Positions 16,427-30,591 of a stretch of 64,000 nt of DNA are shown here, piece after piece. The position numbers and the translations under genes were made by a program. Position 1 is the stretch's first letter. Each line of letters opens with the position of its first letter. A model generated the notes under the pieces. It saw nothing but the letters and a program-made list of their open reading frames with translations. It was not told the origin of the DNA and searched no databases. This stretch comes from Streptomyces sp. HUAS 15-9 (GTDB taxonomy: Bacteria > Actinomycetota > Actinomycetes > Streptomycetales > Streptomycetaceae), in assembly GCF_025642155.1 (NCBI RefSeq), contig NZ_CP106798.1, forward strand, positions 5,518,001-5,582,000, read 5' to 3'.

Positions 16427-17190
16427 GCCAGACCGTCGACCGTGCGCTGAGCATCCTGCCGCTGCTCGCCGAGGGCCCCGCCGACCTCGGCCGGGTCGCC
16501 GACCGGCTCGGCGTGCACAAGTCCACGGCGTTGCGCCTCCTGCGTACCCTCCACGAACACGGCCTGGTCTACCGCCAGTCCGACCAGCGCTACCGCCTCG
16601 GCGCCCGCCTCTTCGCCCTCGCCCAGGAGGCGATGGAGAACCTCGACATCCGCGAGATCGCCCACCCCCACCTCGTCCGCCTCAACGAGCAGTGCGGACA
16701 CACCGTCCATCTCGCGGTGTACGAGGAGAACGAGGTGCTCTACCTCGACAAGGTGGACAGCCGCTACCCCGTGCGCATGTACTCGCGGATCGGCAAGCCC
16801 GTCGCCATCACCGTCGCGGCCGTGGCCAAGCTGCTGCTCGCCGATCTGCCCGAACCAGAGCGCCGCGCGGTCGCGGAACGGCTCGAATACCCCATGTACA
16901 CGGTTCGTTCAACGCCCAACGCCCCTGCCTATCTAAGGGAGTTGGACAGGGTGCGCGAACAGGGCTGGGCCGCTGACCTCGGCGGCCACGAGGAGTCCAT
17001 CAACTGTGTCGCGGCCCCCGTCCGGGGCGTCGACGGCCGGGTGGTCGCCGCGATGTCGCTCTCCGCGCCGAACGTCGTCGTCACCGCCGAGGAACTCCTC
17101 ACCCTGCTCCCGCTGGTGCGTCGTACCGCGGACGCGATCAGCAGCGAATATTCCGGCCGAACTCCGGTTCAAGACCCCGAACTCCGGTAA
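16423..17190 (+). CDS. IclR-family transcriptional regulator
   Basis: A 255-residue protein with an N-terminal winged helix-turn-helix (residues 4-60, ADRLGVHKSTALRLLRTL) and a C-terminal IclR effector domain (REIAHPHLVRLNEQCGHTVHLAV, then EESINCVAAPV). It is translationally coupled to the kinase by an ATGA overlap, so it probably regulates the cluster, including the divergent D-aminoacylase operon, in response to a pathway metabolite. The reading frame ends normally just before the IS110 remnant. Confidence 0.9.
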   Translation: MSQTVDRALSILPLLAEGPADLGRVADRLGVHKSTALRLLRTLHEHGLVYRQSDQRYRLGARLFALAQEAMENLDIREIAHPHLVRLNEQCGHTVHLAVYEENEVLYLDKVDSRYPVRMYSRIGKPVAITVAAVAKLLLADLPEPERRAVAERLEYPMYTVRSTPNAPAYLRELDRVREQGWAADLGGHEESINCVAAPVRGVDGRVVAAMSLSAPNVVVTAEELLTLLPLVRRTADAISSEYSGRTPVQDPELR

Positions 17191-17204
17191 AGGACTTCCC
17201 AATC

Positions 17205-18600
17205 GTGATGTCAAGCCGCAGCCGTGACGGGAGGTGAACCTTGATAGCACTCTCCGTCACGGATCATCGCCCACAAGACGTTGAGCCTGCGGCGAGCGAG
17301 GGCCAGCAGGGCCTGCTTGTGTCCTTTCCCCTCGCTGCGCTTGCGCTGGTAGTACGCCTTGGAGGCGGAGCATGTCGTGATGCTGACCATCGCCGAGAGG
17401 TACATCGACCGCAGCAGGCCACGGTGGTACCGCTTGGGCCTGCGCAGGTTGCCGCTGACGCGGCCGGAGTCGCGTGGTCTGGGGCCAAGCGGCGAAGCCG
17501 GCCAGTCGGTCGGCGCTGCCGAAGGCGTCCATGTCACCGCCGGTGGCGGCGATGAACTCGGCACCCAGCTTGGTGCCCATACCGGGGAGGCTGCGGATCA
17601 CCTCGGCGTGCGGATGCTCGCGAAACCTGGCCTCGATCAGGGCGTCGAGCTCGGCGATCTCCTCATCGAGGGCCATCACCCCCTTCGCGAGGCGGACCAC
17701 CATGGCGGCGGCCAGCCTCTCGCCGGGCAGCGCAGTCTGCTGGGCTTGCGCGGCTTCCACCGCCTTCTTCGCGAGCGTGGCGGCGCCGCGGACCTTGCGG
17801 TGCTTCAGCCAGGTCTCGATCCGCTTGACGCCGGCGCGGCGGATCGCGGCCGGGGTCTGGTAGCCGGTCAGCAGCGTCACCGGGCCCTTGTTGACCAGGT
17901 CCAGCGACCGTTCCAACGCGGGAAGATCTCCAGCAGTTGAGCCCGCAGACGGTTGATCTGCCGGGTGCGGTCGAAGACCACGTCCAGCCGCCGGGTGGTC
18001 AGAGTGCGCAGGTCGACGGCGATCTCGTCACCGGGCCGCAGCAGCCCGAGGTCCCGGCGGACCCGGGCCTGGTCGGCGATGACGAAGGCGTCCTTCGCGT
18101 CGGTCTTGCCCTCGCCCTTGTAGGTGGCCGAGGCCCGGTGGACCGCCAGGCCGGTGAGGTAAGCCATCGGCTGGCCGTGATTGAGCAGCAGGCCAATCAG
18201 CAAAGCGGCGCCGCCGTGGTTGAGGTCGACGGCCCACAGCACGTCGGTGGATATCGCCAGGACATCGCCGATGAGCTGCAGCAGCTCGGTCTCGTCGTTC
18301 AGGACCCGACGGGACAGCAGACGTTCGCCATCCGCGTTGATCACCACGCAATGGTGGTGTTCCTTGCCGATGTCCACTCCGGCCCAGATCTCGGGCACGT
18401 TCCCCTCCGCCAGCTCGCCATCACATCGATCCCGCAGACGACCTCGCCGACGTTGTCCTACAGCAGCGATCGAGTCGCGTCTCCCAATTGGCGGTCGAGT
18501 CGTCGCGGGGCTCCGGGCGGCCAAGTCCTTTGAGCCGTCGAACCGGCGCTCGCATGACAGCCATACCGAGAACCCCTGGGCCCTCCGATCTTACGAATGA
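17205..18600 (-). mobile_element. Decayed IS110-family insertion sequence
   Basis: The stretch between the IclR and RidA genes holds a single frameshifted IS110-type transposase on the minus strand plus about 200 bp of non-coding sequence upstream of its start (18399-18600). Elements of this family lack clear terminal inverted repeats, so both ends are uncertain by tens of bases. In the family the non-coding sequence outside the transposase gene encodes the bridge RNA that pairs target and donor; 18399-18600 is where I would expect it if this is an IS110-group rather than an IS1111-group member. It separates ridA from the other D-amino-acid genes. Confidence 0.75.
17211..18398 (-). pseudogene. 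IS110-family transposase, two or more frameshifts
   Basis: The GTG at 18398, after GAGGGGAAC, starts an N-terminal DEDD domain (IWAGVDIGKEHHH, then KTDAKDAFVIADQARVR). This frame breaks at about 17915: the next frame resumes with LERSLDLVNKGPVTLL, a one-base loss. It carries the GMGTKLGAEFIAATGG region to about 17490, where a second shift leads to the C-terminal part (SGRVSGNLRRPKRYHRGLL, the serine-containing segment, and ARRRLNVLWAMIRDG) ending at 17211. All family segments are present, so decay is recent or partly due to sequence errors. As read it is non-functional. Confidence 0.85.
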
Positions 18601-18633
18601 CCAGAGCAACCACCCTTGAAAGGTAGGACCCGC

Positions 18634-19044
18634 ATGACGGACAAGATCGCACTCACCCCGAAGACCCACGGCACCCCTCCCGCCAAGTTCTCGTTCGGTG
18701 TGCGCAAGGGCAACATCCTCCAGGTGGCCGGTCAGGTCGGCTTCCTCCCGGCCGAGGAGGGCAGGCCCCCCACGCCCGCAGGACCCACCCTGCGCGAGCA
18801 GACCCTCCAGACCTTCGTCAACGTCAAGGCGGTCCTTGAGGAGGGCGGCGCGAGCTGGGACGACGTGATGATGCTCCGCGTCCATCTGACGGACACGGCG
18901 CACTTCGCGGAGATGAACGAGATCTACGACGCCTATTTCGAGGAGCAGGGGCTCACGCAGGCTCCGGCCGCTCGTACGACGGTGTACGTCGGTCTTCCCG
19001 AGGGTCTGCTGATCGAGATGGACGCCTTGGCCGTACTCGGCTGA
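18634..19044 (+). CDS. ridA: RidA (YjgF/UK114) family enamine/imine deaminase
   Basis: A 136-residue protein starting at the ATG at 18634 after GAAAGG. RidA proteins hydrolyse reactive 2-aminoacrylate-type intermediates released by PLP enzymes. The conserved Arg lies in APAARTTVYVG and the C-terminal LPEGLLIEMDALAV matches the family. It probably belonged with the D-serine-dehydratase-like gene, whose chemistry produces exactly such intermediates, before the IS110 element inserted between them. It is followed 40 bp later by the TPR-CHAT gene. Confidence 0.9.
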   Translation: MTDKIALTPKTHGTPPAKFSFGVRKGNILQVAGQVGFLPAEEGRPPTPAGPTLREQTLQTFVNVKAVLEEGGASWDDVMMLRVHLTDTAHFAEMNEIYDAYFEEQGLTQAPAARTTVYVGLPEGLLIEMDALAVLG

Positions 19045-19084
19045 CCGACCGGGACGCGAACCCGACGGGCCCTGTCCGGGCAGT

Positions 19085-22000
19085 ATGGGCTCTGTGACCG
19101 ACGACCTCCTCGAAGAGCTGGCCGCCGAGCGCGACCAAGTGCTCGACGCGCTGGCCCAGTTGTCCTCCGGCGACCCTGACGCGCCCGGCATGTGCGGATA
19201 CGCGGGCGAGTTGAGCCACCGGCTGTATCTGCTGCGCGCCCGGGGCGAGGACGACGAGGAACTCGCCCTGGCCGTCGACGCGTTCGAGCACGCCTTCCGC
19301 AGGCCCGGCGTGGAGCCGGTGTGGTCGGCCTGGCGAATCCGGTTCGGGCATCTGCGGGCCGTGCAGTACGAGGCGGAGGGGCAGCGCCGGCTCCTCGACG
19401 AAGGCTGGGAGTTGCTGCGTGACGGGGTCGACGGGCTGGCGTCCGACGACCCCGACTTCGGCAACGAGCGGGCGTGGGGCCGGTATCTGCTCGCCGTCTG
19501 CGCCAAGACCCGCTACCTCGCCGCCCCGGACCCGGACGCCCTCGACGAGGCCCTGCGCCGCCACACCGACGCACTGGACGACGTGGAACCGGACGGCGAG
19601 GAGGAGGCCGATCTGCGGACCGCACTGGGCTTCCTCCATCTGCAACGAGCCCGGCTGTACGGCGACTTGGCGGCCGCCGCCGAGTCGGCCGCGCACTACC
19701 GCGCCGTGCTCGCCGTGGCCGGGCCCGCCGACCTCCCGCACATCCGCCACAGCATGGGCATCGCCACCATGCTGCACGGCCGGGCCAGCGGCGACCAGGA
19801 GGAGCTGGAGACGGCCCGGGACGCCTTCGACACGGCCCTCACCGAGGCCCGCAGGGCAGGCGGCCCCGAGCCCGACTGGGCCTTCGAGGCCGAGGTCAAC
19901 GCCATCTTCGTACGCGCCGTGATCTGGTCCACCTGGAAGGACGTCGGGCACGCCCTCGCCGCCGAGGTCGAACTGCGCCGGCTGCTCGAACGTCCCGGCG
20001 CCGAAGCCCAGTTGTTGCCCCAGTACCTCGACGCGTTCGGACGGCTGCTGTACGAGCGGGCCGCCGAGCGCGACGACGCCGAGGGCCGGGACCGCGGGAT
20101 CGTGCTGATACGGCGGGCCGTCACCGAGTGGGACCAGGACCGCGACGGCGAGATCGCGCCCCCCGCCCTGTTCCTCGCCCTCCTCCAGCAGGCCCGCTAT
20201 CACGACGACCCGGACCCGCGCCGGGCCCAGGACGTCCTGGAGGCCGCCGGACGGCTCCTGAACGGCCGGCACGGCAACCATGACGGACGGCTCGACAACC
20301 ATGAACTGACGCAGTCGGCCCTCATGCTGGACGGCTGGGCCCGCTTCACCCTCGCCGAGCACGGACTCCTCGCCCGGACCGACGACGGACTCCCGGAGGG
20401 CCTCGACGCGGAGGCGTTCCGCGGGACCGTCGACACCATGCTCGACGACCTGCGCGAGGGACGCGCCTTCCTCGACTTCGGCGAGGAGGAGTTCCTGCGC
20501 GGCATGGAACGGGACGTGACCGGCCGCAAACGCCGTATCGAGAGCTTCGAGAAGGCACTCGCCCAGCTGCGCGGCGCCGAACCGGGCAGCGCGGGCCGGG
20601 CCCAGCTCGCCGCGATGATGCTGTGCAACCTCACCGTCGTCGACCCGGAGGGCACCTATGTCACCGCCGAACACCGGCGGCAGCTGACAGAAGCGGTGCT
20701 CGAGCGTGCCGAGCGGGACCCGGCCTGGCGCGGGCAGGCCCACGTCGTCGCGGGCATGGCCCGGCTGCACGAGGAGACGACCGTCGGCACCGGCGCGGGC
20801 CTCGACGAGGTGCTCGCCCACTTCGACCGGGCGCAGGAGGCCGGCGTCCCGGAGACGGACGGCCACGGCGGCTACGGCCTGGCCATGGCCCGGCTCATGG
20901 CACAGACCCAGCGCGGCCAGACCGGCGGCGCCGCCGACGACATGGAGGCGGGCGCCCGGACCTGGCGCCGGCTGCGCGACAACCCCGCCCTGCCCGCACA
21001 TCTGCGCCGCATGATGGACCTCCAGCAGGCCGGCTTCGACGCGCACACCGCCGTCCAGCGCGGCGACCTGGCTGCCGCCGACCGGCACATCGCCGCGCTC
21101 ACCGAGGGCCACGCCGCCATGAGCGACGAGGACCCCTCCCGCATCGAGATCTACACCGCCCTGGAGAACGCCCGCGCCGCCCGCGACAACCTCGCCCGCA
21201 CCCTCGGTGCCCCGCCCCTGCCACCGCTGCCCGGCCGCCCCGGCGCGGCCGAACTGCGCCGCCAGGCCCGCAGACTGCCCCGCGACCACCGCGCCTGGGT
21301 GCTCGGCGACGCCGGCATCACCCGCTTCACCCGGGCCGGGGCCGCCATGGACGGATCCGGCATCGTGGAGGCGATCGGCCTGCTCAAGGAGGCCCACGAG
21401 CTGTCCGAGCCGGGCAGTGACAGCCGCCTCAGATACGGCCACTGCCTCGGCATCGCCCACTGCGCCCTGTCCGGCCTGGAGTTCGACCGCGTCCGGCGCC
21501 GCGAGCGGCTGGCCCGGGGCATCGAGCTCCTGGAGCGCGGGTTCGCCGAGGCGGGCGGGCCCGAACACCGCCTGTACGCCGAGATCGGCCTCGCGCTCGC
21601 CCGTGCCCACCGCACCCGCGACGACCTCCACCGCCGCGACCGCGCCTCCGCCCGCACCCTCGGCCTGACGTCCCTGCGCGGCCACGCCTGGGCCGCCCTG
21701 CTCCAGTCCGGCACCGACCACGCCGCCCTCGCGGCCGCGCACGCCACCCGCTCGGCGCTGGAGGTGGCCGGCTGGTGCCTCAAGGACGACCGTCCCGAGG
21801 AGGCGCTCCAGGCCCTCGACGCCTGCCGCGGCCTGGTCCTGCACGCCGCGCTGACCTCCACCACCGTGCCCGACCTCCTCACCTCGGCGGGCCGGGCCGA
21901 CCTCGCCGAGGAATGGCGGGCCACGGGCGCGGACGCCGCCGACCGGCCGACCGACCCGCTGACGGCCGCGCGCGCGCCCCTCGCCGTCCCCAGCACCCTG

Positions 22001-23248
22001 CGCCGCCGCGTCCTCACCGCGCTCACCGACACAGAGGCCGGCGCCCCCCTCGCGGCCCGGCTCCTCGACCCGCCCGCCCCCGACGAGATCGCCGGGGCCC
22101 TGCGCGCACTCGCCAAGGACGCCCTGGTCTACCTGGTCCCGTCCTCCGACGACGCGCCCGGCACCGCCCTGGTCGTCACGTCCAGCGGCACGGTGCACGC
22201 CGTACCCCTGCCGACGCTCTCTCAGGACGCGGCGCCGCTGAAGGAGTACGCCCCCGCGGGCGTCCTCACCCGCGACCTCGGCCCGGTCCCCGGCTCCGTG
22301 TTCGCCGCGGCCCCGCCCTCCCTGCGCAAACAGCTCGACCGTCTGTGCGGCTGGGCCTGGTACGCCGCCATGCGCCCGCTGCTGGAGGCCTTCGAGATGC
22401 CGCGGGGCCGGCTGCCCCGGCTCGTCCTCGTCCCCATGGGGACGCTCGGCCTGGTCCCCTGGCACGCCGCGTGGGAGTCGGGCGGCCCGCGCGGGCGCCA
22501 GTACGCCCTCCAGGCCGCCGAGATCTCCTACGCCGCCTCCGCCCGGCTCCTGTGCCAGGTGGCCGCCCGGCCCGCCACCGACCACACCGGCGGCGCGCTG
22601 GTCGTCGGCAACCCCACCGGCGACCTCCACTACGCGGGCGAGGAGGCCGACGCCGTCCAGCGCGCCTTCTATCCCCAGGGCCGCTTCCTCGGCCGCCGCG
22701 GCACCGGCCCGGCGGACGGCACGGGCACCCCGGGCGAGGTGCTGGACTGGCTGCGCGAGGGTGCCGACGGGGGAGTGCTGCACCTCGCCTGCCACGCCTC
22801 CGTCGCCGCGAACGCCCGCCGCAGCTCGTATCTCTCCCTCAGCGACGGCCAGTTGGCGGCCGAGGAGATCACCGGCGCGGGTGCCGGGGACGGTGGCGGC
22901 CCGGCCCTCGTCCTGCTGGCGGCCTGCCGCAGCCATGTCTCCGGCCGGGGCCACAACGAGGCCTACAGCCTCGCCACCGCCTTCCTCGTCGCGGGCGCCC
23001 GCTCGGTCGTCGGCTCACTGTGGCCGGTCCCCGACGAGGCGACCTCGGTCCTGATGTTCCTCACCCACCACTTCCTGCGCACCCACGGCGAACCCCCGGC
23101 GAAGGCACTGCGCCGGGCCCAGCTGTGGATGATCGACCCCGACCGCGCACTGCCCGCCGAACTCCCTCCGGCCCTGGCCGACCGCGCCCGCCGGATCGAT
23201 CCGCACGACCTGAGCGCGTGGGCGGGGTTCACCCACCTGGGCCGCTGA
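19085..23248 (+). CDS. Large TPR-CHAT protease-like protein
   Basis: A 1387-residue protein. About the first 1000 residues are helical, Ala/Arg/Asp-rich TPR-like repeats. The last 300 form a CHAT domain (a caspase-HetF-associated protease of the separase/caspase clan). Candidate catalytic residues are His1237 in HLACHA and Cys1281 in LLAACRS, followed by YSLATAFLVAGARSVVGSLWPVPD, the CHAT hallmark. TPR-CHAT proteins act as proteases, some switched on by partners, as in type III-E CRISPR or gasdermin immunity. No CRISPR or gasdermin is visible here. Its stop overlaps by 20 bp the end of the convergent caspase gene. A GTG 9 bases after the ATG is an alternative start. Confidence 0.85.
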   Translation: MGSVTDDLLEELAAERDQVLDALAQLSSGDPDAPGMCGYAGELSHRLYLLRARGEDDEELALAVDAFEHAFRRPGVEPVWSAWRIRFGHLRAVQYEAEGQRRLLDEGWELLRDGVDGLASDDPDFGNERAWGRYLLAVCAKTRYLAAPDPDALDEALRRHTDALDDVEPDGEEEADLRTALGFLHLQRARLYGDLAAAAESAAHYRAVLAVAGPADLPHIRHSMGIATMLHGRASGDQEELETARDAFDTALTEARRAGGPEPDWAFEAEVNAIFVRAVIWSTWKDVGHALAAEVELRRLLERPGAEAQLLPQYLDAFGRLLYERAAERDDAEGRDRGIVLIRRAVTEWDQDRDGEIAPPALFLALLQQARYHDDPDPRRAQDVLEAAGRLLNGRHGNHDGRLDNHELTQSALMLDGWARFTLAEHGLLARTDDGLPEGLDAEAFRGTVDTMLDDLREGRAFLDFGEEEFLRGMERDVTGRKRRIESFEKALAQLRGAEPGSAGRAQLAAMMLCNLTVVDPEGTYVTAEHRRQLTEAVLERAERDPAWRGQAHVVAGMARLHEETTVGTGAGLDEVLAHFDRAQEAGVPETDGHGGYGLAMARLMAQTQRGQTGGAADDMEAGARTWRRLRDNPALPAHLRRMMDLQQAGFDAHTAVQRGDLAAADRHIAALTEGHAAMSDEDPSRIEIYTALENARAARDNLARTLGAPPLPPLPGRPGAAELRRQARRLPRDHRAWVLGDAGITRFTRAGAAMDGSGIVEAIGLLKEAHELSEPGSDSRLRYGHCLGIAHCALSGLEFDRVRRRERLARGIELLERGFAEAGGPEHRLYAEIGLALARAHRTRDDLHRRDRASARTLGLTSLRGHAWAALLQSGTDHAALAAAHATRSALEVAGWCLKDDRPEEALQALDACRGLVLHAALTSTTVPDLLTSAGRADLAEEWRATGADAADRPTDPLTAARAPLAVPSTLRRRVLTALTDTEAGAPLAARLLDPPAPDEIAGALRALAKDALVYLVPSSDDAPGTALVVTSSGTVHAVPLPTLSQDAAPLKEYAPAGVLTRDLGPVPGSVFAAAPPSLRKQLDRLCGWAWYAAMRPLLEAFEMPRGRLPRLVLVPMGTLGLVPWHAAWESGGPRGRQYALQAAEISYAASARLLCQVAARPATDHTGGALVVGNPTGDLHYAGEEADAVQRAFYPQGRFLGRRGTGPADGTGTPGEVLDWLREGADGGVLHLACHASVAANARRSSYLSLSDGQLAAEEITGAGAGDGGGPALVLLAACRSHVSGRGHNEAYSLATAFLVAGARSVVGSLWPVPDEATSVLMFLTHHFLRTHGEPPAKALRRAQLWMIDPDRALPAELPPALADRARRIDPHDLSAWAGFTHLGR

Positions 23249-25040
23249 TCGGCTTTGGCACGAGTGTGCGCAGGGGGAGGGTGACGGTGGTCCAGCGGCC
23301 GGGCCCGCCCCCGGGGACCGGTCCCAGGTCGCGGATGCCAAAGGGGGTCCAGGGATCCCAGGCGGGCAGTTGGAACGGCAGTGTGTTCAACTCCCCTTCC
23401 GCGACGATCAGCTTGAGCCAGTCCCACCCCTCGGCCCCGGGCACTGCCGCACGGCCGCGCGGCAACGACAGCTGCACGGGCTCGCCGTCCAGCGCGTAGC
23501 CCGTACGCCCGGGACCGATGAAGTGCCCGGGATACAGGAGGGAATGGCAGGCGTAGCTGTCGGTCAGATCCAGCAGCAGGCACCACAGCGTGCGGTCGGG
23601 GGAGCTGTTGTGCAGCCGGATCGAGACCCAGGGCGCCTGCCCGTCCGCATACGCACAGACGATCTCCCCGGCGGCGTCACGTCGCAGCGGCTCGTCGGAG
23701 CCCCAGGAAGTGATCTCCACCCGTACCAGTTCGTCGAGCAGCGAGGGCCGCGGAGTCATGTCGCGCAGCTGGTGCCAGCGGGTGAGGTGCGTCAGACAGT
23801 CCACGACACGTCGCGCGTCCGCACCGCCCCCGTACGGCACAGGCTCGGTGAACGCCGTGCCGTCGCGCCGCAGCACCTGGGCCGCACCGTCCCGTACCCG
23901 CACCCGGAAGTGCAGATCACCGGCGTCTTCGGGCCCGTCGACCAACCGCACCAGTGGCGCGTCCGAGAGGGCTTCGGCCAGCTCCCGTACGGCCGCGGCG
24001 GACCCGTCGACCGCCACCGTCCCGGGCGGCAGCGCGACCGCCGAGAGTTCCACCGGATAGACCCGCTCCTGCTCCGGCACCCACCCGACGGGCGTGACCA
24101 GCGTCCGGCCCACCCCCACTTCCCACGCCTGTACGACGGATCGTCCCGGCTCCCCGTCCACCACCGCGAACTCCGTCCCCCGGGCCCCCGCACCGTGCAC
24201 GCTGCCGCAGTCCACCTCCCAGCCGTCCGGCCCGTGGCTCAGCAGATGCGGACTCGGCGCCCTGCCCGCCCCGCCTCCCAGGAACGGCCGGTCCACCGCG
24301 CCGCCCGGTAGATCCGGGTACAGCACCGGCCGCTGCCCGCTCCCCAGCCGCTGCACACCCACCGCGGCCGCCGCCAGCAGTTCCCGGCAGGTGGCGTCGT
24401 CCCCGGCCGCGCGGGCCGCGCTAACCAGCGCGCGCGTGAACGCACCCTGTCGCACCCCGTCGAACCAGCCCTCGAAGGACTGCTGGTCGAGCCGGCACGC
24501 GGCCAGCAGCAGATGCCGGGGAGGGGTGCGGGAACCCTGCGTGTCACGCGCCCCCAAGTCCCAGGCGGGCAACGGCGGCGCGTACCGCGCCGTCAACTCC
24601 GCGTCGCGCGAGGCACCCCCGGAATGACAGCAGTCCAACACCGCCACCACCTGCCCACCCCCGGCCGCCACCGTGTCGAGCAGCGCGCCCAGGCGCTTGT
24701 CCAGCAGCGGGCCGTCCACGCAGACCAGGGCCTGGTTGAGCCCCGTCGCCTCGATCAGCAGGTCGTCGCCGGTGGCTTCCCGCTGGGTGCCGTGTCCGGA
24801 GAACCACAGCAGCGCGGTGTCCCCGTCGCCCGCCGCGCCCAAGTGCCGTACGACCGCGTCCGTCACCGCGTCGACCGTCGCCTCGTCGTCCAACAGGACC
24901 ATGACGTCGGCCCGTTCGCCCGCGAGATCGGTCAGCAGCCGGTGTGCCGCGGCAACGTCGTTGGCGCAGCCACCCAGTGGTGTCGCCACGGATTCCGGAT
25001 AGTCGTCGACCCCGACCAGGAGCGCCTTGATCCTTCCCAT
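23229..25040 (-). CDS. Caspase-family (C14) protein with long C-terminal domain
   Basis: From the ATG at 25040 (MGRIKALLVGVDDYP, the usual start) the protein is 603 residues. Residues 1-250 are a caspase/metacaspase fold: His83 in WFSGHGTQ and Cys138 in VLDCCHSGG form the dyad. The remaining 350 residues include a beta-rich region (PWVSIRLHNSSPDRTLWC and the following LDLTDSYACHSL) seen in other bacterial caspase-like proteins. The frame is open upstream to 25235 without family similarity. It is divergent from the five-gene AAA+ operon, 97 bp between starts, and convergent with the TPR-CHAT gene. Confidence 0.85.
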   Translation of the reverse strand: MGRIKALLVGVDDYPESVATPLGGCANDVAAAHRLLTDLAGERADVMVLLDDEATVDAVTDAVVRHLGAAGDGDTALLWFSGHGTQREATGDDLLIEATGLNQALVCVDGPLLDKRLGALLDTVAAGGGQVVAVLDCCHSGGASRDAELTARYAPPLPAWDLGARDTQGSRTPPRHLLLAACRLDQQSFEGWFDGVRQGAFTRALVSAARAAGDDATCRELLAAAAVGVQRLGSGQRPVLYPDLPGGAVDRPFLGGGAGRAPSPHLLSHGPDGWEVDCGSVHGAGARGTEFAVVDGEPGRSVVQAWEVGVGRTLVTPVGWVPEQERVYPVELSAVALPPGTVAVDGSAAAVRELAEALSDAPLVRLVDGPEDAGDLHFRVRVRDGAAQVLRRDGTAFTEPVPYGGGADARRVVDCLTHLTRWHQLRDMTPRPSLLDELVRVEITSWGSDEPLRRDAAGEIVCAYADGQAPWVSIRLHNSSPDRTLWCLLLDLTDSYACHSLLYPGHFIGPGRTGYALDGEPVQLSLPRGRAAVPGAEGWDWLKLIVAEGELNTLPFQLPAWDPWTPFGIRDLGPVPGGGPGRWTTVTLPLRTLVPKPISGPGG

Positions 25041-25083
25041 GGGTCCGAGTGTGTCAATTGTGCTTCGAGCTCGCACTCTTGAC

Positions 25084-25093
25084 GTGACGTCAC
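25084..25093. promoter_or_regulatory. Palindrome in the shared caspase / AAA-operon promoter region
   Basis: GTGACGTCAC is a perfect 10-bp palindrome in the 97-bp divergent intergenic region, directly after a TTGACG -35-like hexamer at 25079-25084 reading rightward. It could be the operator that co-regulates both directions. Confidence 0.4.
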
Positions 25094-25137
25094 TAAACTT
25101 TGCTCCTGGTAACACCACCCATGACATCGGGGGACAC

Positions 25138-25602
25138 ATGGGGTACACCGAACGTCCGCGACGTATCGTGCGGCCCACACTCGGCACCGGACAGTCGCAC
25201 GCGCCCTCCGCACCCGCCGCTCCGGCGCCCGGCATCGCGCGCCGCGAGCTCTACGGGCCACGCTCCGCACCCCTGCTGGAGGCCGTGCGCCGGCTCGACG
25301 CGGGCCTCGACGAACAGGCGAGCCGCTCGCTCGCGGACTGGGTCCGGGAGCAGTACACGACGTCGTACGGCTCCGTGCCGCTCGGCTTCGTCGCCCGCTG
25401 CTTTCTGGGCCCGCCGTACGTCGACCACCAGCTCAACCTGTTCCATGTCATCGTGCGGCACTTCGCCCCGGCCGAGCAGATGCCCGAGCCGTTCTCGGCG
25501 GCCCGGATGCTCGCCCGCTCCGGCGGCTACGCCTACGTCGAGGTGTACGCCGACGGCCTGATCCTGCCCGTACTCGACGACGGCACGGTCGTACGGCCCT
25601 GA
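25138..25602 (+). CDS. Small protein of unknown function, first gene of AAA+ operon
   Basis: The ATG at 25138 follows GGGGGA. The 154-residue protein has a disordered start (Pro/Ala-rich to residue 38) and a folded, helical body: LLEAVRRLDAGLDEQASRSL, then DHQLNLFHVIVRHFAP and AYVEVYADGLILPVLD at the end. I do not recognise a named family. By position and size it could be an adaptor or an effector-associated module for the AAA+/caspase system. Confidence 0.65.
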   Translation: MGYTERPRRIVRPTLGTGQSHAPSAPAAPAPGIARRELYGPRSAPLLEAVRRLDAGLDEQASRSLADWVREQYTTSYGSVPLGFVARCFLGPPYVDHQLNLFHVIVRHFAPAEQMPEPFSAARMLARSGGYAYVEVYADGLILPVLDDGTVVRP

Positions 25603-25660
25603 GCCGGTGCCGCCCCCACGCTCCACACCCCCAGACGCAGCACGCGAACGGAGTTCCCGC

Positions 25661-27481
25661 ATGTCCGAGGTCGACCTCGCCCTGCACCGCAAGGTGCAGG
25701 AAGTCAGCAACCTCGTCATCAGGCTCAGCGAACAGGTCGGCTCGGTGTCCGGCCAGGTCTCCACGGTCGAGTCCAACCAGCAGCAGACGCGCACCGAGCT
25801 CCAGCAGCTGCGGGACGAGTTCCTGGCCTTCGTCAGACAGGCCGAGTCCACGGCGAACGTGCAGCGCGCCGAGACCCGGATCGGGGCCATCGAGGACAAG
25901 ATCGACCACGAGTTCGGCCATCACAAGACGGTCCGGCGCACCGCGGTCGGCATGCTCCAGGCCTTCGACGTCGGCCTGGTCTCCGAGGAGAACGTCCGGA
26001 TGGTCAGCGACCAGCTGATGATCCAGACGCCCCGCTACTGGCTGGCGCCCGCCCTGGTCGCGCTCGCCTCCTGGTCGGCCGACGACCGGCAGCTGTGCGA
26101 CCGCGCCGTCGACGAGGCGTTCCGCCGCTCGCCCGACCGCACCTCGCTGTTCTTCGCGCTCGTCCTGCGCCGCCAGGGCCGGTCCGAGTCGGCGGTGCGC
26201 TGGCTGCGGCACTATCTGCTGGCCCAGGACCCGGCCGCCCTCGGGCGTGAGTTCGCCGTCATCCTGGAGGCCATCGCGCAGGGCGCCTTCGGACTCGTCG
26301 GCCGTGATCTGCTCGACCGCACCCTCGCCGAGTGGCGCGCCCAGCTGATGGACAGTGCGGACGCGCAGGCCCGGCAGATCAAGCGGTGGCGCGACGAGAT
26401 CGACACGCTGCGCGCGCCGTCGAGCCAGGGCGAGTTCCCGCGGCTGGCCGCCGTCTCGCCGCAGTGGGTCACCCTCGACGGCGTGCTGTCCGCCGCGCGC
26501 GGGCAGACGGCCCTCCTGGACAAGTACAGGGCCATCATGGAGCGGGAGTTCGAGCCGTCCGAGCGTATCGAGGACGCCGTCGACGACATCCTCGACCGGC
26601 TGGTCTCCGAGTACGACAACGAGGAGCTGCCGCTGCGCCGCGACCTCGCCTTCAACCAGGCGGTCGTGGACCACGACGGCGACCTCGGTGCCGCCCGGCA
26701 GACGGCCGACGCGGACGCCGCCTCGTACGAGGAGACCCTCGACTACCTCACCGTGCAGACCACCGCGGCCCTCAATCCGCAGGCCATCGGCACCTCCCCG
26801 GCCACCCAGCGGCTGGCCGTGGCCGCCTGCCACGAGTGGTTCCAGCAGGCGCACGCCGGCCACACCCGCGACTACCGGGCGGCCGTGCCGCAGGATGTGC
26901 AGGCCCAGTTCGGCACTGCGCACAGCGTCGGCGCGCAGACCTTCCAGCTGCCGCCGTGGATCGGCTCGTTCACCCAGCCGCTGGCCACCCTCGAGAAGGC
27001 GCTCGGCGACCACTGGGACCACTACACCGGCCCGTTCGTCGACGCGCTCGGCTACCCCTGGCTCAAGAAGGCCGCGCCGCTGATCGCGGTGATCGCGGGC
27101 ATCCTGCTGTTCTTCGTCGGCTTCTTCCCCGGCTTCGCGTTCGGCGCCGCCGCGATCGTCGGCATCGTCTGGGGCCTGGTCCTCCACAACGGCTCCCAGA
27201 CCGCCCAGCGCAACCAGGACGCGGCGCGTGAGCTGCTGGCCCGCGCCAAGACCGAGTCGCTGCACCACCTGCGGGCCGCTTCGGCCGAGCTGACGGACTG
27301 GTACGAGAAGTTCCGGGACGCCGACCGGGTCGAGGCCAAGGTCCGCGAGCTGATCGCCACGCTGCCGACGGCGGGCGGCGGCGCCTCGCCGTTCGAGGGC
27401 CGCACCGTACGCAAGGAGTCCGAGGCCAAGATGCCCGAGGCCAACGAGTCCGTGAAGCCCGAGGAGGACACCGTCCGATGA
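25661..27481 (+). CDS. Coiled-coil protein with C-terminal membrane segments
   Basis: A 606-residue protein. The first 80 residues are an amphipathic coiled coil (VSNLVIRLSEQVGSVSGQVS, then heptads to about residue 80). A helical middle follows, and residues 470-510 form one long or two short membrane helices (LIAVIAGILLFFVGFFPGF, then AAIVGIVWGLVLH), with a charged helical tail. ATG at 25661 after GGAG. Its stop overlaps the next start (ATGA). No known family is evident. A coiled-coil sensor plus a membrane hairpin is an architecture seen in membrane-targeting effectors of conflict systems; that reading is inference. Confidence 0.75.
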   Translation: MSEVDLALHRKVQEVSNLVIRLSEQVGSVSGQVSTVESNQQQTRTELQQLRDEFLAFVRQAESTANVQRAETRIGAIEDKIDHEFGHHKTVRRTAVGMLQAFDVGLVSEENVRMVSDQLMIQTPRYWLAPALVALASWSADDRQLCDRAVDEAFRRSPDRTSLFFALVLRRQGRSESAVRWLRHYLLAQDPAALGREFAVILEAIAQGAFGLVGRDLLDRTLAEWRAQLMDSADAQARQIKRWRDEIDTLRAPSSQGEFPRLAAVSPQWVTLDGVLSAARGQTALLDKYRAIMEREFEPSERIEDAVDDILDRLVSEYDNEELPLRRDLAFNQAVVDHDGDLGAARQTADADAASYEETLDYLTVQTTAALNPQAIGTSPATQRLAVAACHEWFQQAHAGHTRDYRAAVPQDVQAQFGTAHSVGAQTFQLPPWIGSFTQPLATLEKALGDHWDHYTGPFVDALGYPWLKKAAPLIAVIAGILLFFVGFFPGFAFGAAAIVGIVWGLVLHNGSQTAQRNQDAARELLARAKTESLHHLRAASAELTDWYEKFRDADRVEAKVRELIATLPTAGGGASPFEGRTVRKESEAKMPEANESVKPEEDTVR

Positions 27482-27816
27482 GCACCCCGCCCCCCACCGC
27501 CCAGCCCGACCCCACCCCACCGCCGTCGTACAGACCGCCGGCCGACTCGCCGTGGGCGGCGACCGCCCCACCGGCGGAGGCTCCGGCCGCGCCGTGGAGT
27601 GCGGCCACCGGGCAACCCGGCCAGACGCCCGCGGCTTCTCCGTGGGCCGCCTCCGCCGACGGCGCACGCGCCCAGAGCTCACCCTGGGCCGCCCAGCGCC
27701 GCCCGCAGCGGGAGCGGGTCACCAGCAGGCTCCGGCGGGTCGTCGAGGGGCTGCCCGACTGGGAGCCGCTGCCGCCCGGCGAGACCGTCGTACGCCGGCC
27801 GGGCAGCACATCGTGA
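27478..27816 (+). CDS. Small Pro/Ala-rich protein
   Basis: A 112-residue protein, translationally coupled at both ends (ATGA with the preceding gene, GTGA with the next). Four SPWAA/APWSA-type motifs (SPWAATAPP, APWSAATG, SPWAASAD, SPWAAQRR) repeat along a disordered Pro/Ala stretch, then a basic segment and LPDWEPLPPGETVVRRPG. The repeated SPWAA motifs look like short binding sites for a partner. No known family. Confidence 0.65.
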   Translation: MSTPPPTAQPDPTPPPSYRPPADSPWAATAPPAEAPAAPWSAATGQPGQTPAASPWAASADGARAQSSPWAAQRRPQRERVTSRLRRVVEGLPDWEPLPPGETVVRRPGSTS

Positions 27817-28364
27817 GCGGGCTGTGGGGCGACGGCGGCGCCTACCAGGCCTGGGTCGGCTTCCTGCGCCGCTGGGCCGCCCTGGAACCCGCCGACCCGG
27901 CCACGCTGCCCGCGCTCGTCCAGGAGCAGTACGACGCCGACACCTGGGTACGCCTCGCCGAGCACCTCACGACCGCCCTGGACACCCGGCTCGTCACCTG
28001 GGCCGAGTCCCTCGTCCGCGCCCTGGACCAGGCCCGGGACGCGTTCTCGTACGGCCGTGAACTCGCCCAGGCCCGCACCGGCCTGCACACCGTCCGCGCC
28101 CTGGCGGCCCACCCCGGCCTGCCCGAGTCCCTGCGCACCCGGCTCACCGAGCTCGTCGACCGCCAGATCCCGCAGGTCCAGGCCCAGTTGGAGCAGAACC
28201 TGGACCACGAGGCCCGGCGCGGCGCGGACCCGAGGACCGTCGAGCGCCGCCGCCGCACCCTGCGGGACAACGCGCTGACCGGAGCCCTCACCGTGCGGAC
28301 GACCCAGGACGGCTGGGCGTACGACCCGGCGGCACCGTCGCGACGGCGCATCGTGCCCGGGTGA
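27813..28364 (+). CDS. Helical protein of unknown function in AAA+ operon
   Basis: A GTG start at 27813 overlaps the preceding stop. The 183-residue product is almost all helical (AYQAWVGFLRRWAALEPAD, then LDTRLVTWAESLVRALDQAR), ending in a Arg-rich segment and WAYDPAAPSRRRIVPG. No signal or membrane segment. Likely a subunit or substrate adaptor that binds the AAA+ ATPase encoded 50 bp downstream. Confidence 0.65.
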   Translation: MSGLWGDGGAYQAWVGFLRRWAALEPADPATLPALVQEQYDADTWVRLAEHLTTALDTRLVTWAESLVRALDQARDAFSYGRELAQARTGLHTVRALAAHPGLPESLRTRLTELVDRQIPQVQAQLEQNLDHEARRGADPRTVERRRRTLRDNALTGALTVRTTQDGWAYDPAAPSRRRIVPG

Positions 28365-28413
28365 GCGGCCCCGCCGCCCCGCCGCCCGCAATCCACCCTC
28401 CGAGAAGGCCCGA

Positions 28414-29979
28414 ATGTCGAACTACGCCGAGAGCCTCAGCCACCTCGACAGCTATATCTCCGCCCGCGTCCCGGTCATCGCGATGCGCACCATCGAGCAG
28501 CAGCGCGCCCTGAGGCTGCTGCGCGAGGCGGCGACCCAGTCCCGGCGCAGCAGCATGCCGTTCTGGATCTACACCCGGGCCACCGGACTGCGCGATCTGC
28601 GCACCAACGCGCCCGTGCAGGACGACCGTTCGCTCACCGGTGCCATGGACTTCGCCGCGGCCCAGTTCGGCAGCCGCGCCAACGCCACCGTCGTCTTCGT
28701 CGACCCCGACGAGCTGGAGTCGGACACCCCGGTCACCCGGCACTTCGCCGAGCTGGCGCGGCTCGCCGACAGCAACATGGGCAGCATCGTGCTGATCACG
28801 GACACGCCGATCTGGAGCGGTCTGCAGCGCCTCGGCATGAGCCTGCGTCTCGACCTGCCGGACTCCGAGGAGATGTACGGCATCCTCAGCGGTTTCCTGG
28901 GTGATCACCACGGCCACATCCCCATCGAGTGGACCGAGGAGGACGCCCGCCGTGCCGCGGAGTTCCTGAGCGGGGTCACCGAGGCGGAGTGCGTCAACCT
29001 GATGGCGACCATCGCCGCCAAGGGCTCCATCCGGCGCGACGACGTCCTCGGCCTCGCCCAGGCCAAGGACCGCATCTTCAGCGACCTCACCGGCCTGGAG
29101 AGGGTGCAGCTCAGGCAGAGCGACTACGCCATCGGCGGGCTGAGCGGTCTGCGCACCTGGCTGGAGCGCAAGCACGACATGATCTCCCGCGACCTCAGGA
29201 ACACCGCCCTGCGGCCGCCGCGCGGAGTGCTGCTGGTCGGTGTCCCCGGCTGCGGCAAGTCCCTGTCCGCCAAGGCCATCGCCCACGACTGGAAACTCCC
29301 GCTGTACCGGCTCGACATGGCCTCCATCCACGGCAAGTACCTCGGTGAGTCCGAGGGCCGCTTCCGGGAGGCGCTCGCCATGGCCGACCGGGTGGCGCCC
29401 TGTGTCCTGTGGATCGACGAGATCGAGAAGGGCCTGGCCGGCCGCGACGACATGTCCGGCGTGCCGCAGCGCATCATCGGCCAGTTCCTCTACTGGCTCC
29501 AGGAGTCCCAGTCCCGCGCCTTCGTCGTGGCCACCGCCAACGACATCCGCAGCCTGCCGCCCGAACTCCTGCGCAAGGGCCGCTTCGACGAGCTGTTCTT
29601 CGTCGACCTGCCCGACGCCCAGGACCGCAAGGAGATCATCCGCATCTACCACCGGCGCTATCTCCAGGCGGACCTCGACCCCGACCGGCTGGACCGGCTC
29701 GTCGACCTCTCCGAGGGCTTCGCCGGCTCCGACATCGAGGCCGCGCTGCACGACGTGGGCGAGGAGGCGGTGCGCCGAGGCGGCGTGGCCCAGCTGAAGG
29801 ACTCGTACGTGATGGACACCTTCGCCCAGGTACGCCCGCTCAGCGTCAGCAATCCCGAGCAGATCGAGGAGATCCGCGCCTGGGGCCGCGAGCGCGCGGT
29901 GCCGGCCGGCCGGGCCGCGGTGACACCGGTGCCGGGCGACGGGGGACGGACGCGGCGGATCGTGTTCATGGACGAGTAG
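28414..29979 (+). CDS. AAA+ ATPase (Ycf46/classic AAA-like)
   Basis: A 521-residue protein. Residues 1-230 form an N-terminal domain resembling the inactive first part of Ycf46-type proteins ([19 protein letters not shown] at the start). The AAA core has Walker A GVPGCGKS (about 276-283), Walker [10 protein letters not shown] (331-339), a sensor-1 ATAND, an arginine-finger region [15 protein letters not shown] and sensor-2 [11 protein letters not shown]. It is the classic-AAA type that remodels or threads proteins. Last gene of the tightly packed operon at 25138-29979; its role with the coiled-coil membrane protein and small partners is inferred from that packing. Confidence 0.9.
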
Positions 29980-30063
29980 GGCCGATGACGAGCAATCGGG
30001 GTGAACCCGGGTGAAGGGTGGTCCGGCTGGTTCCGGCACAGGTATGTCGTCCATACTGCCGCC

Positions 30064-30591
30064 GTGGAGCAGCGCATAGGATCGAGCAGCAAGCCCCTGA
30101 AGGGCGCCGGATTCGACCCGGCCTTCATCCCCGGGCTCACCTCCCCAGGGTCCGCGGAGCCGGAGGACGCCGAGCCGGAGACGGCCGAGGCGGAGGCCGA
30201 GACGGCCGAGGCGGCGGTGTCGGACGAGGATGCGGCACCGGCAAAGGCCGCCACCGACGAGGCCGAGGACGAGGCCGAGGAATCGGCGGAGTCGGACGAG
30301 CCGGAAACCCCGGAGGGTCCCGTCTTCGAGGCCGCCGACCGTCGCGCCAAGATAGTGGCCGACCACAAGGGCGTCCGCCTCACCCTCGACGAGGAGTCCT
30401 GCGAGTTCCGCTGGGACGAGATCGGCGCGGTCGAGACGGAGGCCCCCCGCTTCGGCAAGCGCTTCACCGTCACGGTGCACACTCCTGACCGCCGCTGGTT
30501 CCCGATCGAGATCGAGGCGACGGCCAGGAGCCGCTTCAAGGAGTGGGAAGAGCAGCTGGACGCGGTGCTGGACGCCTACTTCGAGGAGTGA
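30064..30591 (+). CDS. Acidic protein with C-terminal folded domain
   Basis: From the GTG at 30064 (MEQRIGSSSKPLKGAGFDP) the protein is 175 residues; the frame is open to 30001. Residues 30-90 are an extreme Glu/Asp/Ala low-complexity stretch. The C-terminal 85 residues (ADRRAKIVADHKGVRLTLD, then IEIEATARSRFKEWEEQLD) look like a small beta domain with a PH-like feel. Cytoplasmic, unknown function. Confidence 0.65.
   Translation: MEQRIGSSSKPLKGAGFDPAFIPGLTSPGSAEPEDAEPETAEAEAETAEAAVSDEDAAPAKAATDEAEDEAEESAESDEPETPEGPVFEAADRRAKIVADHKGVRLTLDEESCEFRWDEIGAVETEAPRFGKRFTVTVHTPDRRWFPIEIEATARSRFKEWEEQLDAVLDAYFEE

Follow-up and report, generated by a model that had tools for sequence, protein, structure and literature searches.

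Do two proteases of the caspase clan and the AAA+ operon beside them make up one device, and what would such a device do? The question is raised by a locus of Streptomyces sp. HUAS 15-9, within the stretch of 64,000 nucleotides analysed here (the window: positions 5,518,001 to 5,582,000 of contig NZ_CP106798.1, i.e., 5.52-5.58 Mb on a 9.26-Mb contig of a 9.6-Mb genome), where positions 19,085-29,979 are occupied by the genes for a CHAT protease and a caspase, together with an AAA+ operon of five genes. A first-pass annotation of this DNA had proposed that the seven genes form a single conflict system. We find that the block is one accessory insertion and that it is a composite of a widespread core, undescribed in the literature searched, and a protease pair; it is a candidate device for cell suicide or defence. 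The common short terminal peptide found among the core proteins is new here. The reading that we develop below, and to which we give somewhat less than even chances, is that of a membrane core coupled in actinomycetes to a CHAT-caspase death switch, through joined modules, docking ends and a proteolytic cascade.

One accessory insertion with a constant layout

All seven genes described by the first-pass annotation were found, and the arrangement is the one that it had drawn: the two protease genes lie tail-to-tail with a 20-bp overlap, and the caspase gene is divergent from five core genes on the + strand, packed in a tight operon in which an ATGA overlap joins genes 2 and 3 and a GTGA overlap joins genes 3 and 4. 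In gene order, the products of the latter are called here SMALL, CC (a coiled-coil membrane protein), linker, HEL (a helical protein) and AAA. The block has a G+C content of 73.5% (versus 70.0%). Among its proteins, domains scoring above the Pfam cut-off are CHAT, Peptidase_C14 and AAA; the remaining core proteins (SMALL, CC, linker and HEL) have none above the Pfam or NCBIfam cut-offs, and their PADLOC matches are at noise level.

The insertion was analysed through flank searches in 41 genomes and six stretches fetched from relatives. In five of these six, the RidA gene and the homologue of the gene at 30,001-30,591, which border the block in the window, are neighbours with no block between them, at a place where the window has about 10.96 kb. 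In one case (L175, from G001) they are 91 bp apart, measured between aligned ends; in the other four (L172, L173, L174 and L177) the distance is about 1.6 kb and includes one open membrane-protein gene, of gluconate-permease type by eye. In the sixth (L176) the right-hand gene was not found in the fetched stretch. The limits of the insertion, as judged from these relatives, match the ends of the block in the window.

Within the genus, ten loci with the AAA gene were collected, the closest named relative among the matches listed being a Streptomyces with 97% identity. The tenth locus (L050) is cut at the AAA gene; in the nine readable ones (the window, L039-L042 and L044-L047) the order and orientation of the seven genes are the same. 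The right-hand neighbour of the 30,001 type is present in six of the nine, and neither neighbour was found in the available stretch (up to 10 kb on each side) of the remaining three (L041/L159, L042 and L047), so the block is present at more than one site.

The spacer between the caspase gene and the operon contains the palindrome that the first-pass annotation had pointed out. Its TGAYN6TCA form occurs a single time on the + strand of the whole 64-kb window and is kept in all nine same-genus caspase/operon spacers compared; in 1000 rounds of single-base shuffling, it appeared in all nine spacers together 0 times.

On the left, next to RidA, a 1.45-kb stretch (window 17189-18638) separates this neighbour of the block from an IclR-type gene. 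Copies of it exist at four further sites on the same chromosome, with 100% identity among the matches listed, and it is probably an insertion sequence present in five copies.

A widespread core and a protease pair

The distribution of the parts was analysed at two scales. In a sample of 119 genomes of the order (cut-offs of E<=1e-30 for AAA+, 1e-40 for the caspase, 1e-30 for the last 567 residues of CHAT and 1e-10 for CC), relatives of AAA+ are carried by six genomes, of the caspase by nine and of CHAT by 15. All six AAA+ genomes also have both proteases, which, together with the constant layout in the nine readable loci, bears out the expectation that the seven genes stay together across Streptomyces. 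CHAT stands beside the caspase without any core gene in three genomes (G036, G044 and G105, with 16-20 kb fetched from each), and six further genomes have a CHAT relative only. CC is found in 11 of the 119, namely the six AAA+ genomes and five with relatives of 25-27% identity. Such distant CC relatives, from the same genus (L152-L157), adjoin in L152, L155, L156 and L157 a gene of Ser/Thr-kinase appearance by eye, and the CC-type scaffold may serve a second, kinase-based system.

On the larger scale, 121 AAA+-bearing loci were assembled from the best 80 matches among 84,980 species genomes, together with virus, plasmid and phage loci and those of genomes with G handles, taking at most 10 kb on each side. 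SMALL is present in 78 of them, CC in 87, HEL in 90, and CC or HEL in 90; the core genes are on the same strand in the clusters compared. A CHAT relative appears within the stretch in 15 loci (two of them weak) and a caspase relative in 11, all from actinomycetes. As CHAT and caspase are absent from the stretch in most loci that have the core, the core constitutes a system of its own. The 31 loci without CC or HEL are 29 IMG/VR relatives, with 30-42% AAA+ identity, and two contig ends; the virus-collection contigs L010-L038, with an AAA+ relative and no CC, HEL or SMALL match, correspond to a separate branch with other partners. Hosts of the core belong to Actinomycetota, Pseudomonadota, Bacteroidota, Bacillota and Mycoplasmatota, with single loci in Fusobacteriota and other phyla and with many metagenome bins. 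In many Bacillota SMALL comes after AAA and not first, and one locus (L114) has a gene row with two copies of CC and a SMALL.

The catalytic motifs of the two proteases are conserved. The CHAT domain comprises residues 1086-1386, behind a long N-terminal region, and has the His/Cys dyad HLACH / LAACRS; the caspase has FSGHG / DCCHSG, and its C-terminal 360 residues or so match no family. Both motifs are found in 12 of 15 CHAT relatives detected by hidden Markov model, the remaining three being cut at the locus edge (L048) or weak (L049 and L071), and in nine of 11 caspase relatives. The catalytic residues claimed by the first-pass annotation are therefore intact in the window and kept in most relatives. 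Its claim of 1000 residues of repeats in CHAT found no such confirmation, since the N-terminal 1000 residues match no TPR model at E<=1. No gasdermin match was obtained among the block proteins by Pfam and NCBIfam sequence searches, which a remote gasdermin would escape.

The idea of one seven-gene system thus holds in part: the block is a single insertion with a constant layout in the genus, and it is a join of two modules. Likewise, the independent occurrence that had been named as a refutation is seen in part, the core being wider and often alone and the CHAT-caspase pair standing alone in three genomes. These facts bear on the quite unlikely alternative that the pair and the operon are two independent systems, uncoupled and merely sharing an insertion hotspot. 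The lone pairs of G036, G044 and G105, and the core without both proteases in most loci, are what it would lead one to expect; against it stand the six core carriers of the order sample, none of which is without either protease, the order and orientation shared by all nine readable loci of the genus, which occupy more than one site, and the conserved palindrome between the two halves.

Outside the genus, the immediate neighbours of the core were scanned (133 of 135, after dropping two amino-acid-permease-type near-copies from Flavobacterium; 20 loci that were same-genus, cut or near-identical were left out). A recurrent effector beside the core was looked for and rejected, each of the best 25 of 132 Pfam families being present in at most three of the 133 neighbours. 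FtsK/HerA-type ATPases do recur near the core, by model in L055, L087, L110, L113 and L119 and, in L056, by ends that resemble those of L055. In another locus, SMALL is directly followed by the gene of a 1132-residue protein that combines AAA domains with an FtsH-type M41 peptidase (L080:6758-10153).

Core proteins and their common ends

AAA is a classical, CDC48-like AAA+ ATPase, as judged from its domain score and its Walker motifs. It consists of an N-terminal domain followed by the AAA+ domain, with GVPGCGKS as Walker A and WIDEIEK as Walker B; the Walker residues are invariant in an alignment of 34 rows, and the closest PDB entries by sequence are VCP/CDC48. In SMALL, residues R42, D54, C88, H97, H108, Y131 and E135 are invariant in the alignment. 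Relatives of the linker end in a sequence resembling LPxWDLxPPxxxVRR, and in 75 of 78 loci the region separating CC from HEL codes for such a W motif. Several core proteins from high-GC loci were taken from open reading frames (ORFs) with doubtful extensions.

For CC, a TPR-like solenoid, at about residues 85-410, and a membrane hairpin, at about residues 466-510, are predicted. Of 78 CC proteins, 77 have a strongly hydrophobic stretch close to the C-terminus, and the one without it (L044) is represented by an ORF with a long C-terminal extension; the sequence of this stretch is itself poorly conserved. Matches that might mark CC as a pore former or dynamin were rejected as evidence: those of the window protein to DLP_helical and LeoA-type models are weak (E 0.035 and 0.018) and lie in the coiled coil, residues 7-96, and those of other CC rows are to LeoBC. 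When 54 CC rows were compared with PADLOC-DB 2.0.0 (2023), LeoBC was the commonest match, with seven rows and a best E of 6.6e-07; the CC of the window matches no model of that database at 0.01, and the comparison brought up no known-system model for this scaffold.

One could propose that CC is itself the killing effector, its hairpin being opened by AAA+ into a membrane lesion and the proteases acting as accessory regulators. We regard this as very unlikely. It would fit the near constancy of the hydrophobic stretch, the presence of CC in 87 of 121 loci and the lack of a recurrent neighbour among the 133 flanking genes (best 25 of 132 Pfam families), and it is opposed by the poor conservation of the hydrophobic sequence and by a likeness to known pore formers that does not rise above noise.

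A listing of the protein ends revealed that the pattern [RK]-x-[IVLM]-[ILVMF] recurs at the ends of core proteins, exemplified by the HEL tails GRRILL, GRKIIF and RRRIVPG and by the SMALL heads MARAILG, MARIILQN, MPRPMLRRPQ and PRRIVRP; some CC tails and linker heads also carry it. It is present in the last 12 residues of 78 of 90 AAA and 51 of 89 HEL proteins, and in the first 30 residues of 62 of 75 SMALL proteins (longest ATG start used, ORFs above 215 amino acids dropped). Among other ORFs of the same loci, the rate is 9.9% of 805 in the C-terminal 12 residues (2-21% by group) and 14-41% by group in the first 30; counts within one family are not independent. That unrelated families should end alike within one operon is not expected.

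Where SMALL is present, 74 of 75 loci have the motif in the AAA tail, versus none of seven intact loci without SMALL (five incomplete loci dropped), the exception (L059) having GRRVVV 24 residues ahead of the AAA end. The seven, with CC, HEL and AAA and without SMALL in the stretch, are L108, L109, L111, L115, L117, L118 and L119, from a Bacilli/Mollicutes clade. For the HEL tail, the motif is present in 48 of the 53 loci that begin with SMALL versus none of the 23 that have SMALL last.

Some neighbouring proteins appear to be tagged in a similar way near their N-terminus, with RRRIHL (L055 and L056) and RRRIYV (L110); of the 805 control ORFs, 19 have the strict RRRI-type form within their first 45 residues, these three among them. 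They are encoded upstream of the core (L055:3233-6151, L056:3348-6203 and L110:886-3795) and the two scanned with Pfam (L055 and L110) are FtsK/SpoIIIE-type. Positions of all features in the window are collected in Table 1.

Table 1. Features of the block in window coordinates, with their basic matches and motifs (aa, amino acids).
Feature	Position	Strand	Description
Accessory block, approximate limits	19053..30015		RidA (end 19044) on left, gene 30001-30591 on right
CHAT protease, 1387 aa	19085..23248	+	Pfam CHAT E=4.5e-56, 190.9 bits vs cut-off 24
Caspase (Peptidase_C14), 603 aa	23229..25040	-	Pfam E=1.2e-22, 81.2 bits vs cut-off 21.4; PADLOC caspase E=2e-29
Palindrome TGACGTGACGTCA	25080..25092		Caspase/operon divergent promoter; candidate shared operator
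SMALL, 154 aa, core gene 1	25138..25602	+	No family match; AlphaFold2 pLDDT 87
SMALL head motif RRIVRP	25159..25176	+	Motif near N-terminus
CC, 606 aa, core gene 2	25661..27481	+	N-terminal coiled coil, predicted TPR-like solenoid and hydrophobic hairpin, C-terminal motif tail
CC tail RTVRK	27401..27415	+	R581 conserved in at least 90% of the CC alignment
Linker, 112 aa, core gene 3	27478..27816	+	SPWAA repeats, then LPDWEPLPPGETVVRR
HEL, 183 aa, core gene 4	27813..28364	+	Invariant Y11/W14
HEL tail RRRIVPG	28341-28361	+	C-terminal motif
AAA, 521 aa, core gene 5	28414..29979	+	Pfam AAA E=4.5e-30, 105.2 bits vs cut-off 21.2
AAA tail RRIVFMDE	29953-29976	+	C-terminal motif

A possible death switch and its relation to known systems

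How could these elements work together? The first module (SMALL-CC-linker-HEL-AAA) would be a widespread membrane machine, in which CC, as the models predict, would be anchored by its hydrophobic hairpin, with the TPR-like solenoid facing the cytoplasm. Terminal peptides are known to be read by TPR grooves, and the ends of AAA, HEL and SMALL (those of CC and linker less so) may all dock on one reader, for which the CC solenoid is the most likely candidate. Docking would gather a classical AAA+ ring with HEL and SMALL at the membrane, where a target would be remodelled or gated. The second module, the CHAT-caspase pair, would be coupled to the machine in Streptomyces-type and some other actinomycetes under the shared operator. 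Upon a trigger that could be infection by a phage or damage to the envelope, activation would release a cascade from CHAT to caspase, stopping or killing the cell, possibly as a means of defence. In favour of this reading are the recurrence of SMALL, CC and HEL beside AAA+, the shared terminal motif, met also near the N-terminus of FtsK-type neighbours, the predicted solenoid and hairpin of CC, the single insertion with its constant layout, the conserved palindrome, and the satellite phage, small plasmid and integrase-linked locus that carry the core (see below).

Several observations weigh against this coupled reading. Regarding the docking ends, the strict motif is present in just 36 of 78 CC tails (last 16 residues), Firmicute and Fusobacterial HEL mostly do not have it (2 of 27), and the association between SMALL and the AAA tail may be one event, because the seven SMALL-less loci form one clade, which also makes a Fisher p for it meaningless. 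As for the proteases, a terminal motif is not clearly seen in them (1 of 13 CHAT tails and 4 of 11 caspase tails); the RTVV stretch of the caspase tail is also present in the core-free G044. Since most core loci have neither CHAT nor caspase in the stretch, the core cannot require them for its basic function. Regarding defence, the core is rare in mobile collections, with one of 50,697 phage records and four of 72,556 plasmid records (one of them a 2.1-Mb replicon), and a scan of 2.9 million IMG/VR contigs with the CC pattern gave two loci. In the AAA+ tree, Actinomycetota, Pseudomonadota and Bacteroidota each fall on one side of a branch; a tree that mostly follows phyla makes the core look less like a fast-moving defence system. 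Finally, at 1e-10 and counted by family, PADLOC matches comprise 23 families for the 133 near neighbours and 65 for 134 far neighbours, with no clear enrichment near the core among the best 25 of the 65 far families.

These data lend themselves to another explanation, which we hold to be rather unlikely, namely that the core is an old and often-lost housekeeping or stress module, devoted to membrane-tethered AAA+ remodelling or extraction, whose actinomycete read-out, the CHAT-caspase pair, controls development or cell death and not phage defence. The tree, largely by phylum, the scarcity of the core in collections of phages, plasmids and viruses, and the VCP/CDC48 extractases as nearest solved AAA+ sequences, all speak for it. 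On the other side are the very patchy presence of the core (six of 119 order genomes), the homologous site of relatives, which holds a different gene or nothing, and carriage by a satellite phage and a small plasmid. Streptococcus satellite phage Javan368 has its integrase at one end and CC, HEL, AAA and SMALL at the other, the five core genes are together on a 26-kb Komagataeibacter plasmid and on a 643-kb Comamonas replicon, and in L009 an integrase/invertase-type gene lies about 2.8 kb downstream of AAA. The core is patchy and sometimes mobile; its mobile carriers lend thin support to the abortive-infection role that the first-pass annotation had put forward, and the case for defence is a modest one.

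A broader proposal, quite improbable in our estimation, is that of an undescribed machine for immunity or stress, present across phyla, in which a single terminal peptide code would bind the parts to one another on a TPR-like membrane scaffold: tagged proteins would plug in, such as the FtsK-type ATPase of mycobacteria, and actinomycetes would add the CHAT-caspase cascade, giving an analogue of the apoptosome with interchangeable clients.

Although the core is spread over Actinomycetota, Bacteroidota, Pseudomonadota, Bacillota and Fusobacteriota, four of the five proteins that represent it in the window remain under the Pfam and NCBIfam cut-offs. An immune or cell-death machine of this kind would be a new one, whose assembly rule is simple and can be tested; it would also reveal the way in which bacterial caspase and CHAT proteases are wired to an ATP-driven membrane gate, a question in bacterial programmed death. 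Were the core a stress module, its peptide code and the swapping-in of protease effectors would still provide new leads.

In agreement with the first-pass annotation, which knew of no described system with this gene set, no description of it was found in the literature searched, which covers few subscription papers or bioRxiv preprints. Among known systems, the anti-phage system IetAS pairs an AAA+ protein (IetA) with a protease of subtilase type. The window AAA resembles IetA (71.4 bits; PADLOC E=7.6e-26) and also stands alongside proteases; however, its score is far under the curated cut-off of 510, the block has no subtilase match, its proteases are of another clan, and its core has four further genes. 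In type III CRISPR, SAVED-CHAT proteins start cascades that lead to a caspase, and the proposed CHAT-to-caspase cascade is modelled on them because CHAT acts there upstream of a second protease.

A further comparison is offered by Craspase, with the TPR-CHAT protein Csx29 (PMC10028731, PMC9729208), which shares with the block CHAT a long N-terminal region. The block CHAT reaches 23.1 bits versus a cut-off of 300 for the Csx29 model, and no Cas family is among the listed Pfam and NCBIfam matches of the block proteins.

Closer in its setting is the two-gene EACC1-caspase conflict system, which is reported to be prevalent in actinobacteria and associates a membrane component with a caspase, proteolytic effector release having been proposed (Kaur et al., 2020; PMC7159879). 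The block is also actinobacterial and also has a membrane component and a caspase. Nevertheless, it differs from that system in adding an AAA+ operon and CHAT and in that its caspase gene is divergent from, and not downstream of, the membrane partner. EACC1 is not among the Pfam and NCBIfam matches listed, up to E=1, for the seven block proteins, and the window caspase is related weakly to NCBIfam NF047832 (63.9 bits versus a cut-off of 140), which places it outside the EACC1-associated subfamily.

Lastly, the MoxR-vWA ternary systems of multicellular bacteria are reported to have an AAA+ ATPase as a threshold-setting component, together with effector domains (Kaur et al., 2020, 2021; PMC7159879, PMC8195603). 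Unlike them, the block has no MoxR or vWA match among those listed from Pfam and NCBIfam, its AAA+ being nearest to the CDC48 type; what it has in common with these systems is the association of an AAA+ ATPase with effector domains in a multicellular bacterium.

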